From the NCBI GenBank assembly GCA_024278345.1, contig JAJRTK010000346.1:1-13053 (forward strand): a stretch of 13,053 nt of DNA, read 5' to 3'. A model generated the notes under the pieces. It searched no databases, was not told the DNA's origin, and worked only from the letters and a program-made list of their open reading frames with translations. Position numbers and translations under genes: made by a program. Position 1 is the first letter of the stretch. Each line of letters begins with the position of its first letter. This DNA comes from a bacterium (GTDB taxonomy: Bacteria; CSSED10-310; JAJRTK01). This document shows positions 9,480-12,690 of the stretch, piece by piece.

Positions 9480-9519
9480 GTTGTGTTCCGCTCCCGTCAG
9501 CGTCCGTCCGGCCGCCGCC
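9480..9519 (-). repeat. 40-bp element shared with 12261-12300, just upstream of the aminomutase gene
   Basis: Matches 12261-12300 at 36 of 40 positions in the same orientation, including an exact 19-base core (plus strand GTTGTGTTCCGCTCCCGTC). It ends 16 bp before the preferred aminomutase start. Minus-strand reading gives GACGGGAGCGGAACACAAC. Either a dispersed repeat or a shared control site; see findings. Confidence 0.75.
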
Positions 9520-9590
9520 GGGAGCCGTTTCACCGCCTTCGGTTTCCGTGCCCCGGGGAAGCGCGGCACGACCCGCATGTCGGTGGAGAA

Positions 9591-10343
9591 TTAGACTCTG
9601 GGGTAGAAAGCCAAGAGCACGTAGCCAAACCGGATCTGATCGCCACTCTGGATTGGCTCGGGCCGGCCTGGCACGAGCCGGTTCTCGTTGATGAAAGTAC
9701 CGCCTCCCACACCAACTTCTTCCGTGACGTAGAAACACCCGTCCCGGTAGTCGAGCCAGGCGTGTTGCCGCGACACGGAGTTCAAGATATCTTCGTCCGT
9801 GAGATCGATGTCAGGACTGATTCCCGTGGCGGCGTCACGCCGGCCCACCAGCACCTGCTCGGAGTTGATGGGGAAGAGGTTGCCCCGTTCCACCGACTTG
9901 AGATTGCCCAGGAGGCTGTCGGCGCCCTTAGTCTTGGGAATATGGGGACTGGCCGTTTCCAGATGAATCTCGCCGGAACGGTACTGCTCTTCCAACAGGC
10001 GATGCATGTGGCGCAACCGCTGGGAGTACTTCCGCATGATGCGGATGGCGATTTCCGTGTTCCGCTTGAGCATCTCGTCGAAATCCGCCGGCGAGATCTG
10101 CAAAATTTCCACATCTTCAGCAATCTCCGCCGAAGCGGTTCGCGGCTGCCGTTCCAGGAGCGCCATTTCGCCGAAAAAATCACCCTTTTCCAGCGTAGCC
10201 AGATCGATGCGGTTGCCCTCCACCGTCCGGTAGATAGCCACCTTGCCAGAGATGATGACGTACATGATTTCGCCGTGATCACCTTCGGCAAAGATGAGCT
10301 CCCCCGCCGGGCATTTGAGGATCTTGTCTTCTATCCTGGTCAT
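9591..10343 (-). CDS. Cyclic-nucleotide-binding domain fused to FHA domain (250 aa)
   Basis: A two-domain signalling protein with no DNA-binding helix-turn-helix or enzyme domain. Residues 1-115 form a Crp-type cNMP-binding fold: GELIFAEGDHGEIMYVIISG, then the phosphate-binding cassette FFGEMALLERQPRTASAE (56-73) with the conserved Glu59 and Arg68. A helical linker (about 95-155) follows. Residues 155-250 form an FHA domain with GR (167-168), SRQH (191-194) and Asn219 in GGTFINEN, the residues that normally hold phosphothreonine. It could couple a nucleotide signal to a phosphorylated partner; no kinase is nearby. The ATG at 10343 has GGGAGGG seven bases upstream and begins right at the cNMP fold. 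Upstream in-frame codons exist, but the extra 67 residues have no domain. It is separated by gaps from both neighbours, so it may be its own transcription unit. Confidence 0.85.
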   Translation of the reverse strand: MTRIEDKILKCPAGELIFAEGDHGEIMYVIISGKVAIYRTVEGNRIDLATLEKGDFFGEMALLERQPRTASAEIAEDVEILQISPADFDEMLKRNTEIAIRIMRKYSQRLRHMHRLLEEQYRSGEIHLETASPHIPKTKGADSLLGNLKSVERGNLFPINSEQVLVGRRDAATGISPDIDLTDEDILNSVSRQHAWLDYRDGCFYVTEEVGVGGGTFINENRLVPGRPEPIQSGDQIRFGYVLLAFYPRV

Positions 10344-10350
10344 GGATTTA

Positions 10351-10357
10351 CCCTCCC
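10351..10357 (-). promoter_or_regulatory. Ribosome binding site for the cNMP/FHA gene
   Basis: Minus-strand GGGAGGG seven bases before the ATG at 10343. It supports this start over the 67-residue-longer form beginning at 10544. Confidence 0.7.
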
Positions 10358-10463
10358 ACAACGGAGCAACCGGGATTTTTCTTGCGGAATCGCCGCGGGC
10401 AGCCAAAAACGCCCCCCCGGACGAGGAAGGAGGAACAACGCCCGGTCCCGCCCATCGCCGAAG

Positions 10464-10504
10464 GTGCCCAAACGACAAGGGCACGGGCCATGATGAATTG
10501 GCCC
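10464..10504. other. Two back-to-back stem-loops in the 237-bp spacer before the cNMP/FHA gene
   Basis: GTGCCC (10464-10469) pairs with GGGCAC (10479-10484) over a 9-base loop. Directly adjoining it, GGGCCA (10485-10490) pairs with TGGCCC (10499-10504) over an 8-base loop. Both stems are perfect. They lie about 120-160 bases before the start codon on the minus strand and 77 bases past the preceding stop codon. With no T-tract they may be a leader structure, a processing site or a weak terminator. Confidence 0.45.
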
Positions 10505-10580
10505 CGCGGCAGAGCAGACGTGAGATGTTCAGGACCAAGGCCACCTATACCCGAGCCGCGGAGGAAAGGCAACCTTCACT

Positions 10581-12170
10581 TTATTCCTCAAAGCCGGCAC
10601 GAGTCAGCTTCCCGTTGGCGATGGCCGCATCCACATCCGCCTTGAGAGGACAGTCCCCAAGGAAATCGCAGTTGGGACAAAACTTGTTGAGCTTGGGAAG
10701 AAACTCCTCGTCGCTACGGATCTGGCCCACGAGCTCCAGTACTTGGCTCTCGACCTCTTCCAGTTGTTCGTCCGTGCGGCGAGTCTTGAGCGCCTGGCCA
10801 TGAGCAAGCATGTAGATGCCCAGATCCACGTTCTGCCCGTACTGTTGTTTGCAAGCCCAGGCATAAATCCCCAGTTGGAAATCGCCATCCACCTCCTCTT
10901 GGGTCCGCCTGTTGGATTCAGTCTTGTAGTCCCAAACCGTCAGCTTGCCGGTCTCGTCGCGATCGACGCGGTCGATGAAACCATTGAGAATCGCCTGTTG
11001 CCCCACCGGGTATTCGAAGAACTCCTCGATGCCATGAGCCACGATGCGACCCGTGGGCGCCACGAATGACCCGTGGTACTGCCGGAGCATTTCAAGACCC
11101 TTCTCCTGATACCGAGCTTTCTCGCCTTCGCTTCGATATCCTTCCTGGTATTTGAAGAACTCTTCTTGGTAAATGCTCAAAAGGCCTTCGAGGGTCTCTT
11201 CACCCTGGTAGCCGGGAGCATGGAAGCTCTCTAACGTACCGTGGATCGCGTTCCCAAGATCGAAGTAGGGCTTCGGCTCTCCACGGACCCGCTCCACGTA
11301 CACCTTGTGGTAGGCCCGAGGGCAGCGCTGGTAGGAAGAGAGCATACTGTAACTTGTCCGGAGACGCTGGGAATACTCCTCCGGGCTTTCCCCAGCAAGC
11401 TCTCGCGGAGTCTTCGGCCAGGCCGAACAGTTTTCCAGCCAGTCGCAGAAACGGCAGCCGGGGCCGCGGTGGCTTGGGAATTCGTCGGACTCCGCGGCAC
11501 TCTTCAACCGATCCAGGGTCTCTTCAACCCGCTGAAAATCCCTATCACCAAAGGTGAGGCTGATTCTCTGCTGGTTTTGAAGATACCAAAAGGTGAGCCG
11601 CAAAGGCTCCCCAAGCCTCGCAAGCTTCCGGTCACCTGCCGCGGCAAAAAAAGTCATGGCCGCGGCAATATCTCGCTTCAGAAAAAAATCCGTCGCCGGC
11701 GGCCGGCCACTCTTGAAGTCGATGAGCTCCAGGCCGCCGCCAGGAAGCTCGTCAATCCGATCGACAACCGCATTGATCCAGACTCCCGAAATCGCCGTAC
11801 CGCAGAAGGTCTTGGCCGCTGCCACACGGGCCGAGGAAGCCGCTTGCACCGCCCTGTATCGCCGGAGCTGAACCATTGCACGATCCAGCGCCTCCCGGGA
11901 CTCCTCCACCGAAGAAAAAAGATCCTCTTTCCAGATCTGCCGCAACAACTCTTCCAGCCGCTCTGGCGGCGGGCCGCACTTTTGGAGCTTCTCCTTGTGG
12001 TAACCATCGAGCGCCGTATGGAGAAACCGGTCGATGGCGAGCGCGGGCGAACCGGATCCAAACCCACTAACCCCGCCGCCTCGCGCAGCGCCCGTTACCT
12101 GAAGATGATACCTCAAGGGGCACTTGACGAAGTTTCGCACCTTTGAAGGGCTTGTTTTCAGAGAACTCAT
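10581..12170 (-). CDS. Protein with two tandem PD-(D/E)XK (RecB/Cas4-type) nuclease domains (529 aa)
   Basis: Two consecutive RecB-type nuclease domains without a helicase. Second half (about residues 270-529), complete: Cys283 (YQRCPRAYH), motif I His310 (GNAIHGTLE), motif II Asp400 (FIDRVD), motif III Asp414/Lys416 (DYK), Gln432/Tyr436 (QLGIY), and Cys498, Cys501, Cys507 (CPNCDFLGDC). First half: Cys17 (KCPLRYHL), His51, Asp137 (VVDRID), Asp151/Lys153 (DFK) and Cys239, Cys242, Cys248 (CRFCDWLENC), but the Gln-x3-Tyr motif has become Ala with Phe. The cysteine sets match the 4Fe-4S 'iron staple' of Cas4 and AddB. Such nucleases process DNA ends in repair or CRISPR adaptation; no CRISPR or AddA partner is here. 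The ATG at 12170 has AAGGA ten bases upstream and precedes LKTSPSKVRNF, where the fold begins; a GTG at 12203 would add 11 residues. Activity of the first half is uncertain. Confidence 0.88.
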   Translation of the reverse strand: MSSLKTSPSKVRNFVKCPLRYHLQVTGAARGGGVSGFGSGSPALAIDRFLHTALDGYHKEKLQKCGPPPERLEELLRQIWKEDLFSSVEESREALDRAMVQLRRYRAVQAASSARVAAAKTFCGTAISGVWINAVVDRIDELPGGGLELIDFKSGRPPATDFFLKRDIAAAMTFFAAAGDRKLARLGEPLRLTFWYLQNQQRISLTFGDRDFQRVEETLDRLKSAAESDEFPSHRGPGCRFCDWLENCSAWPKTPRELAGESPEEYSQRLRTSYSMLSSYQRCPRAYHKVYVERVRGEPKPYFDLGNAIHGTLESFHAPGYQGEETLEGLLSIYQEEFFKYQEGYRSEGEKARYQEKGLEMLRQYHGSFVAPTGRIVAHGIEEFFEYPVGQQAILNGFIDRVDRDETGKLTVWDYKTESNRRTQEEVDGDFQLGIYAWACKQQYGQNVDLGIYMLAHGQALKTRRTDEQLEEVESQVLELVGQIRSDEEFLPKLNKFCPNCDFLGDCPLKADVDAAIANGKLTRAGFEE

Positions 12171-12180
12171 GGCGCTGGCG

Positions 12181-12188
12181 TCCTTCCC
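12181..12188 (-). promoter_or_regulatory. Ribosome binding site for the double-nuclease gene
   Basis: Minus-strand GGGAAGGA ends ten bases before the ATG at 12170. The alternative GTG at 12203 has no such sequence before it. Confidence 0.6.
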
Positions 12189-12260
12189 GTAATTGGAGCC
12201 CACCAGAGGGATCGGTCCATCTGATCCCGGCAGGGCGTTATGTCAGCAATCTTTTCTTGA

Positions 12261-12300
12261 GTTGTGTTCCGCTCCCGTCGCCGTCCATCCGGCCGACGCC
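12261..12300 (-). repeat. 40-bp element shared with 9480-9519, upstream of the double-nuclease gene
   Basis: Second copy of the element described at 9480-9519 (36 of 40 identical). Here it is 90 bp upstream of the start codon of the nuclease gene, in the same orientation relative to the gene as the other copy. Confidence 0.75.
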
Positions 12301-12690
12301 ACTCGCCTTTTTATCGCACCAAAATCCGCTCGCTGCCCTGGTGCCGCATACCTCGGTCACCGAAAACCGAAGCATCGTCTCTCCGTGCCAGCCCGGCGGC
12401 CATCGATTTCCGGTCTCCAGGACCCGGTTCGGCGATTCTTTGCCGCGAGCTTATGCCAAGGAGGGGGGCAGGCACAAGGGGGGAGTGGCTTTCGCGAAAG
12501 GATCTGCTCCGAAGAGCCTGGCCAAGCTGGCGTTGGAAGAGACCGGGGCACCGGTCATCGGTGGTCGGCGGAGCCTACTATTCCTCCGGCTGGCACCGGC
12601 CACCCGCCAAAACTAAAGAGGCGTGAGGAACTCGGTGCTTTTCATTGCAACGGGTCCTTGCTAGATCCCTGGCGAGGGTCTGATGCCGAG
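12301..12690. other. Gene-free stretch with no recognisable feature
   Basis: Several overlapping open frames occur here on both strands, but none has a family signature, a convincing ribosome site or a natural protein composition. AAGGAGG at 12459-12465 is not followed by a plausible gene. I see no RNA gene. Confidence 0.45.

Follow-up and report, generated by a model that had tools for sequence, protein, structure and literature searches.

A tandem PD-(D/E)XK nuclease with one intact and one decaying active site, linked to a second ComEC in candidate phyla

The gene at positions 10581 to 12170 of the window (the whole stretch of DNA that was analysed, 13,053 nt from a bacterium of candidate division CSSED10-310) encodes a nuclease composed of two Cas4/AddB/AdnA-type PD-(D/E)XK/Fe-S domains born of an internal duplication. 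Judged from the aligned residues, one intact and one decaying active site per chain is a family-wide pattern, and in relatives the gene is both adjacent to and co-occurrent with a second, divergent type of ComEC, referred to here as ComEC2. Overall, the nuclease probably handles DNA on its entry into the cell. Our preferred reading, to which we assign a probability of roughly 55%, is that of a cytosolic enzyme serving a second ComEC DNA-uptake module, in which the C-terminal domain would be catalytic and the N-terminal domain would be a pseudonuclease arm that holds DNA.

Two homologous nuclease domains on one chain

An internally duplicated Cas4/AddB-type domain had been proposed in an earlier note on this DNA, and the comparisons made here agree with that proposal. 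Specifically, PF12705 (PDDEXK_1) is matched twice in the nuclease (Pfam; 193.7 bits, E 6.9e-57, cut-off 22), and the N and C halves are homologous to one another, with 24% identity over 255 aa in BLASTP (E 2.5e-14) and a probability of 100 (E 2.4e-41) in a half-versus-half profile comparison with HHalign. With respect to fold, an AlphaFold2 model of the full-length protein, built on an alignment from 15 relatives (pLDDT 89.5, pTM 0.77), accounts for the entire chain as two nuclease domains, and the C domain predicted on its own reached a pLDDT of 91.9. The earlier note had also asked for a structural comparison of the halves. When each predicted half was compared separately with PDB structures, the RecB-nuclease fold was found in both, with the nuclease domain of AdnA matching the N half at Z 19.4 (VIA-align; 234 residues, 2.6 Å) and the C half at Z 19.3 (235 residues, 3.4 Å). 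AdnA was followed in the structure ranking by AddB, ACE1, Cas4, Dna2, RecE and Exo5.

The gene, its domains and its motif residues (the latter taken from a residue table) are listed below. Residue numbering is counted from the ATG at 12170; an alternative GTG start at 12203 would give an ORF at 10581-12203 of 540 aa, 11 residues longer.

10581..12170, (-): tandem PD-(D/E)XK/4-Cys (Fe-S type) nuclease gene, 529 aa, ATG at 12170
11418..12161, (-): N-terminal domain, residues 4-251; AdnA/Cas4-type fold, four Cys, His-Asp-DxK present, Gln-x3-Tyr gone
12120..12122, (-): Cys17, putative first Fe-S ligand of the N domain
11712..11720, (-): Asp151-Phe-Lys153, D-x-K of the N domain
11652..11666, (-): Ala169...Thr173, where the N domain has lost Gln-x3-Tyr
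11427..11456, (-): Cys239, Cys242 and Cys248 (C-x2-C-x5-C) of the N domain
10641..11363, (-): C-terminal domain, residues 270-510; same fold as the N domain, full catalytic set and four Cys
11322..11324, (-): Cys283, putative first Fe-S ligand of the C domain
11241..11243, (-): His310, C domain
10971..10973, (-): Asp400, C domain
10923..10931, (-): Asp414-Tyr-Lys416, D-x-K of the C domain
10863..10877, (-): Gln432...Tyr436, Gln-x3-Tyr of the C domain
10650..10679, (-): Cys498, Cys501 and Cys507 (C-x2-C-x5-C) of the C domain

The Cys, His, Asp and Asp-x-Lys motifs claimed for both halves could all be located, as C17, H51, D137, D151, K153, C239, C242 and C248 in the N half and as C283, H310, D400, D414, K416, C498, C501 and C507 in the C half, which also has Q432 and Y436. 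The C...C-x2-C-x5-C spacing is common to both cysteine sets. The H-D-DxK-QxxxY set is complete in the C domain, whereas the N domain is without QxxxY. At this lost motif the earlier note had seen Ala and Phe; a gap-free alignment agrees on Ala169 but places Thr173 at the second position, with the Phe at 174. The description of the first active site as degraded is accurate to the extent that Gln-x3-Tyr has been lost, but the degradation is mild in the window protein, because this is the sole catalytic loss there, and is far clearer in relatives. Since the H, D and DxK residues are still in place, residual catalysis by the window N domain is possible.

Several more familiar identities were considered for this protein and rejected. 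CRISPR-associated Cas4 was set aside on a TIGR00372 score of 58.5 bits versus a cut-off of 65, with no repeat array and with no cas gene in the scan of window proteins, and an AddB subunit on a TIGR02786 score of 42.7 bits versus a cut-off of 486.5, with no helicase-like N-terminal part or AddA partner. Against a phage gene, the top-ranking phage matches (440 records) have one domain and align with the C half alone. Against a plasmid gene, there were just 6 matching plasmid records; one of them, a helicase, extends over most of the query as two separate segments at 23%. A scan of viral contigs for the nuclease returned three weak or partial loci. On one contig filed as viral (L187; IMG/VR contig 3300007906_000012, 4981 bases) lies a partial close relative of the tandem nuclease, the best segment of which has 44% identity.

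Distribution and decay of the first domain across the family

The earlier note had suggested a search for homologues of the same two-domain layout and an inspection of their neighbours, and both yielded results: homologues were found, and recurrent neighbours were identified. Full-length homologues with both domains were recovered first by a search among relatives, at 31-34% identity. A profile (alignment) scan of 84,980 species genomes next yielded 16 loci, versus none for a single-protein query, with labels of candidate division CSSED10-310, Schekmanbacteria, Auribacterota (Erginobacter, Euphemobacter, Tritonobacter), Lindowbacteria, Endomicrobia, Aegiribacteria and Ozemobacter. The window's own genome falls with the records that bear the CSSED10-310 label. 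Further members were present in a sample of 386 diverse genomes, and the homologues span at least six candidate or little-studied phyla.

The two domains differ sharply in what they have retained. In the C domain, the H, D, D-x-K, Q-x3-Y and four Cys residues are all kept in 15/15 aligned members, and the last domain is intact in every additional member checked as well. In the N domain of the same 15 members, the four Cys and the first Asp are kept throughout, whereas the D-x-K Asp has become Asn or Ala in six, the His is gone in four, and no more than two have an intact QxxxY. Across many relatives this D-x-K Asp is replaced by Asn, Ala, Val, Phe, Gln or Tyr. The four N-domain Cys residues are nonetheless kept wherever they are covered, even where all catalytic residues are gone (L060, G259), and genomes of the f77, f110 and f137 groups have N domains that retain the four Cys but have lost essentially all of the catalytic residues. 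Only three two-domain N domains with an intact QxxxY were tabulated (two of Lindowbacteria type, and G249), and catalytic completeness of both domains is confined to Lindowbacteria-type members and G249. In a tree, the C domains form a single clade (100/100) apart from the N domains, the branches of which are generally longer; the presence of several long branches leaves the deeper order unsure.

Longer chains also exist. Five tandem domains on one chain were found in three Ozemobacter-type genomes: L045:5925-9905 encodes 1326 aa in which Pfam counts five PD-(D/E)XK/4-Cys domains (434.9 bits), L048:1894-5856 encodes 1320 aa with the same five-domain layout, and the nuclease of G137 is split across contig ends. 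QxxxY occurs only in the last domain of these chains, and the third domain lacks both the His and the D-x-K Asp. Two further architectures were observed among relatives. A related two-domain nuclease in G036 and G061 carries an insert of ~470 aa within its N domain, and at L042:8053-11472 and L117:1053-4634 this insert-bearing form lies immediately 5′ of a second-type ComEC. In addition, a genome of the same phylum as the window (G001) encodes a catalytically complete four-Cys PD-(D/E)XK domain N-terminal to a RecQ helicase with RQC and HRDC (L041:6839-10129).

Taken together, a last domain that is always intact and a first domain that keeps only its Cys throughout make a division of labour well motivated, as far as residue conservation can indicate. 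The earlier note had proposed such a division; its suggestion of an end-measuring role finds no specific support in these data. If instead both domains cut, the protein would be a single-chain counterpart of the AddAB/AdnAB pairs, with one active site per strand. Retention of H51, D137, D151 and K153 in the window N domain would fit such an enzyme, as would the Lindowbacteria-type members and G249 with their two complete sites, but in many relatives the N-domain D-x-K Asp has been replaced and the His lost while the four Cys are always retained, and we regard two cutting domains as improbable.

Association with a second ComEC

In terms of gene neighbourhood, the earlier picture of a standalone nuclease without a partner is not supported, as relatives display operon neighbours belonging to a second ComEC module together with co-occurrence across genomes. 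Neighbour genes were clustered across loci and the recurrent clusters then identified by Pfam as ComEC (Competence plus DUF4131), tandem helix-hairpin-helix (HhH, ComEA-like), metallo-beta-lactamase (MBL) and DHH phosphoesterase. The nuclease adjoins ComEC2 and/or its MBL in 13 loci from 12 genomes and seven families, with 4-nt gene overlaps in several of the linked loci; we estimate that random placement in a few-megabase genome would bring such genes within ~10 kb of each other in ~1% of cases. The G002 genes run in the order ComEC2, HhH, MBL, nuclease and DHH, where the first three junctions overlap by 4, 11 and 4 nt and the last by 0 nt, and the order in G007 is identical. The genome G005 has MBL-nuclease-DHH at the start of one contig and ComEC2-HhH close to the end of another, and G003 has HhH-MBL-nuclease. 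Elsewhere the arrangements are nuclease-ComEC2 (G036, at two loci, G060 and G061), ComEC2-nuclease-MBL (G070, Endomicrobia), ComEC2...MBL-nuclease...canonical-type ComEC (G231, G359 and G091) and nuclease-ComEC2-HhH-MBL (G249). Some loci are less tightly arranged: an MBL-HhH fusion lies ~4 kb upstream of the nuclease in G259, and the nuclease is unlinked to the module in Auribacterota-type genomes (L049, L051, L052, L055 and L057) and in Ozemobacter, which counts against the module reading.

Two unusual fusions were observed among these genes. The G259 protein (L162:4500-6587, 695 aa) joins a metallo-beta-lactamase to four ComEA-like helix-hairpin-helix units, and an Endomicrobia second-type ComEC (L059:2381-5767) carries a staphylococcal-nuclease (SNase) domain at 188-261, before its Competence domain.

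ComEC2, a protein of 930-1300 aa, is the ComEC type linked to the nuclease; nearly all genomes with the module also have a canonical-type ComEC. In a previous survey, every strain except one had just one ComEC in its proteome (PMC6299819). Over the 386 genomes, full-length matches to a ComEC2 profile scored >550 bits and canonical ComEC below ~260 bits, with a few split matches at 310-390. By this measure the tandem nuclease is present in 19 genomes, ComEC2 in 20 and both in 16, where ~1 would be expected (Fisher p 5e-22, a value inflated by relatedness). At the family level, ComEC2 is present in 10 of the 11 nuclease-bearing families, and two genomes (G004 and G006) have neither nuclease nor ComEC2, though sister genomes of their families have both. 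Against the module reading, ComEC2 was undetected in nuclease-bearing G257 (Aegiribacteria) and G124, and some genomes (G001, G025, G084 and G184) have ComEC2 without the tandem nuclease.

The module proteins also have distinctive features of their own. The C-terminal MBL domain has lost its HxHxDH motif in 21/21 ComEC2 proteins, and 13/17 of the separate MBLs retain that motif. By hydropathy, every MBL, HhH and DHH protein checked has one N-terminal membrane helix, and the nuclease has no convincing one. The DHH motifs are intact in most copies of the DHH protein.

With respect to the window's own genome, an assembly of 550 contigs, the nuclease occurs together with ComEC2, the ComEA-like HhH protein and an intact separate MBL. 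ComEC2 and HhH are on contig C466, the MBL, with an intact HAHADH, ends 40 nt from the edge of C121, and a canonical-type ComEC is on C17. The nuclease is on C276, apart from these module contigs, which counts against the module reading. It starts 850 nt from the contig edge with an interspersed repeat in between, and nuclease and MBL may be neighbours across an assembly gap. Within the window, the nuclease gene sits upstream of CRP-FHA, KamA-like, RodZ and RsgA genes, and the surroundings include the following features.

9591-10544, (-): cyclic-nucleotide-binding and FHA domain protein, 36 bp downstream of the nuclease gene
3-812, (-): N-terminal fragment of an IS4-family transposase at the edge of the contig
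1290-1613, 9480-9536, 12251-12317 and 12615-12677: interspersed repeat, recurring on C17, C466 and C494

The repeat copy at 9480-9536 falls inside the called start of the KamA-like ORF, which therefore probably begins further in. As functional partners, the CRP-FHA, KamA-like, RodZ and RsgA genes were rejected on their absence beside the nuclease in relatives. In agreement with the earlier note, the window showed neither a helicase or cas gene nor a CRISPR-like repeat array. Elsewhere in this genome, a 2460-aa ORF on contig C494 (L008:4159-11541) encodes a single polypeptide in which an AddB-like part is fused to an AddA-like UvrD helicase-nuclease.

These observations bear on whether the protein might be a general DNA-repair nuclease that processes ends in the manner of AddB or AdnA, with its helicase encoded elsewhere and its proximity to competence genes reflecting recombination of imported DNA instead of uptake. 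The nuclease domains of AdnA, AddB and Dna2 are indeed its nearest folds, a related single domain is joined to a RecQ helicase in G001, and the window copy is not close to ComEC2. However, the genome already has the fused AddB-AddA helicase-nuclease, the recurrent neighbours are ComEC2, MBL, HhH and DHH, a helicase was looked for in the conserved neighbour clusters and none was identified, and the genome-wide co-occurrence partner is ComEC2. A repair function is on this evidence unlikely, though it is the strongest competitor of the uptake role that we prefer. A defence nuclease (solo-Cas4 or ACE-like) that destroys foreign DNA from a post beside the DNA entry genes appears very unlikely. The PADLOC Cas4 models match the protein (E 2e-17) and the Argonaute-associated Cas4-family ACE1 matches it in fold (Z 14-17), yet the NCBIfam Cas4 score is under its cut-off (58.5 versus 65), the surroundings of the nuclease showed no cas genes and no other defence genes, and its partners are import genes that form a conserved module.

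Proposed mechanism and relation to known systems

In the DNA-uptake role that we favour, the module would comprise ComEC2, a membrane-anchored ComEA-like HhH protein, a membrane-anchored MBL, the tandem nuclease and often a membrane-anchored DHH phosphoesterase. The Fe-S cluster type predicted for the nuclease is usually cytosolic, and because the protein also has no export signal, it would be expected to meet a strand that is already inside. There it might trim or digest the single strand leaving the ComEC2 channel. The C-terminal PD-(D/E)XK domain would be the catalyst, and the N-terminal domain, a pseudonuclease or one in the making with no apparent cutting role in most members, could act as a cluster-stabilised DNA-binding arm that holds the strand or feeds it to the catalyst. 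By analogy, the separate membrane-anchored MBL may replace the dead ComEC2 nuclease domain in trans, and the DHH protein could finish short fragments or oligonucleotides. A module of this kind would be a DNA import-and-processing system, perhaps one for feeding on DNA and not for transformation. Digestion as food is the purpose that we prefer, although pre-recombination trimming or policing of incoming DNA would fit nearly as well.

Individual parts of this scheme have counterparts in known systems. The AdnA and AddB nuclease domains share the fold of both window domains (Z 19.4 and 19.3 for AdnA, ~14 for AddB) and the H-D-DxK-QxxxY motifs, and AddB shares the four-Cys Fe-S signature. The AddAB and AdnAB helicase-nucleases likewise have two nuclease domains acting in one machine; unlike them, the tandem nuclease is without a helicase or helicase-like domain and has both nuclease domains on one chain, the first of them decaying. 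Cas4, solo-Cas4 and ACE1 (PF01930 and the Cas4-like part of PF12705) are single-domain Fe-S PD-(D/E)XK nucleases that match weakly in sequence and well in fold, in contrast to the two to five domains per chain and absence of CRISPR context seen here.

On the uptake side, ComEC passes one strand, and its MBL domain degrades the non-translocated strand outside (PMC8579336, PMC12455585). A DNA-uptake channel coupled to an MBL nuclease is common to ComEC with a C-terminal MBL nuclease and to the module described here, which differs from the canonical case in having a second divergent ComEC with a lost MBL site, a separate membrane-anchored MBL and a tandem Fe-S nuclease. In Streptococcus pneumoniae, the ComEC MBL domain has lost its metal ligands and EndA degrades the strand in trans (PMC8579336). 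EndA thus resembles the module as a separate nuclease accompanying a ComEC MBL domain without metal ligands, but it is extracellular and of another nuclease family; in function the separate MBL comes closer to it, and the tandem nuclease probably resides in the cytosol.

In open-licence full texts we found no paper on a tandem PD-(D/E)XK/Fe-S chain or on such a nuclease linked to ComEC, and neither 'tandem' nor 'competence' occurs in the text of a Cas4 phylogenomics paper (PMC5704561). The same literature contained no characterised two-domain AddB-like family, the discovery of which, with a known partner, would have undercut the earlier note's proposal. Taken alone, the nuclease domain is an ordinary PF12705 member; what is new is the chain layout, the decay pattern and the ComEC2 module.

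More broadly, and more tentatively than for the nuclease itself, these candidate phyla may possess a second, dedicated import system, consisting of a divergent nuclease-dead ComEC, an MBL anchored on the outer side of the membrane and, inside the cell, two to five Cas4-like Fe-S domains on one chain, with cutting expected from the last domain alone, together with a membrane-anchored DHH phosphoesterase. Such a system would import DNA to digest it and would be distinct from the canonical ComEC kept for transformation. How the unwanted strand is degraded in bacteria with a nuclease-dead ComEC has been described as an open question (PMC8579336), and the recurrence of a nuclease-dead second ComEC with defined candidate nucleases beside it allows this question to be tested directly. 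For pseudoenzyme evolution, too, the nuclease family offers a clean natural experiment: its duplicated domain has lost predicted catalytic residues in many lineages and never its four Cys, which argues that the cluster they are expected to bind may have a job besides cutting.
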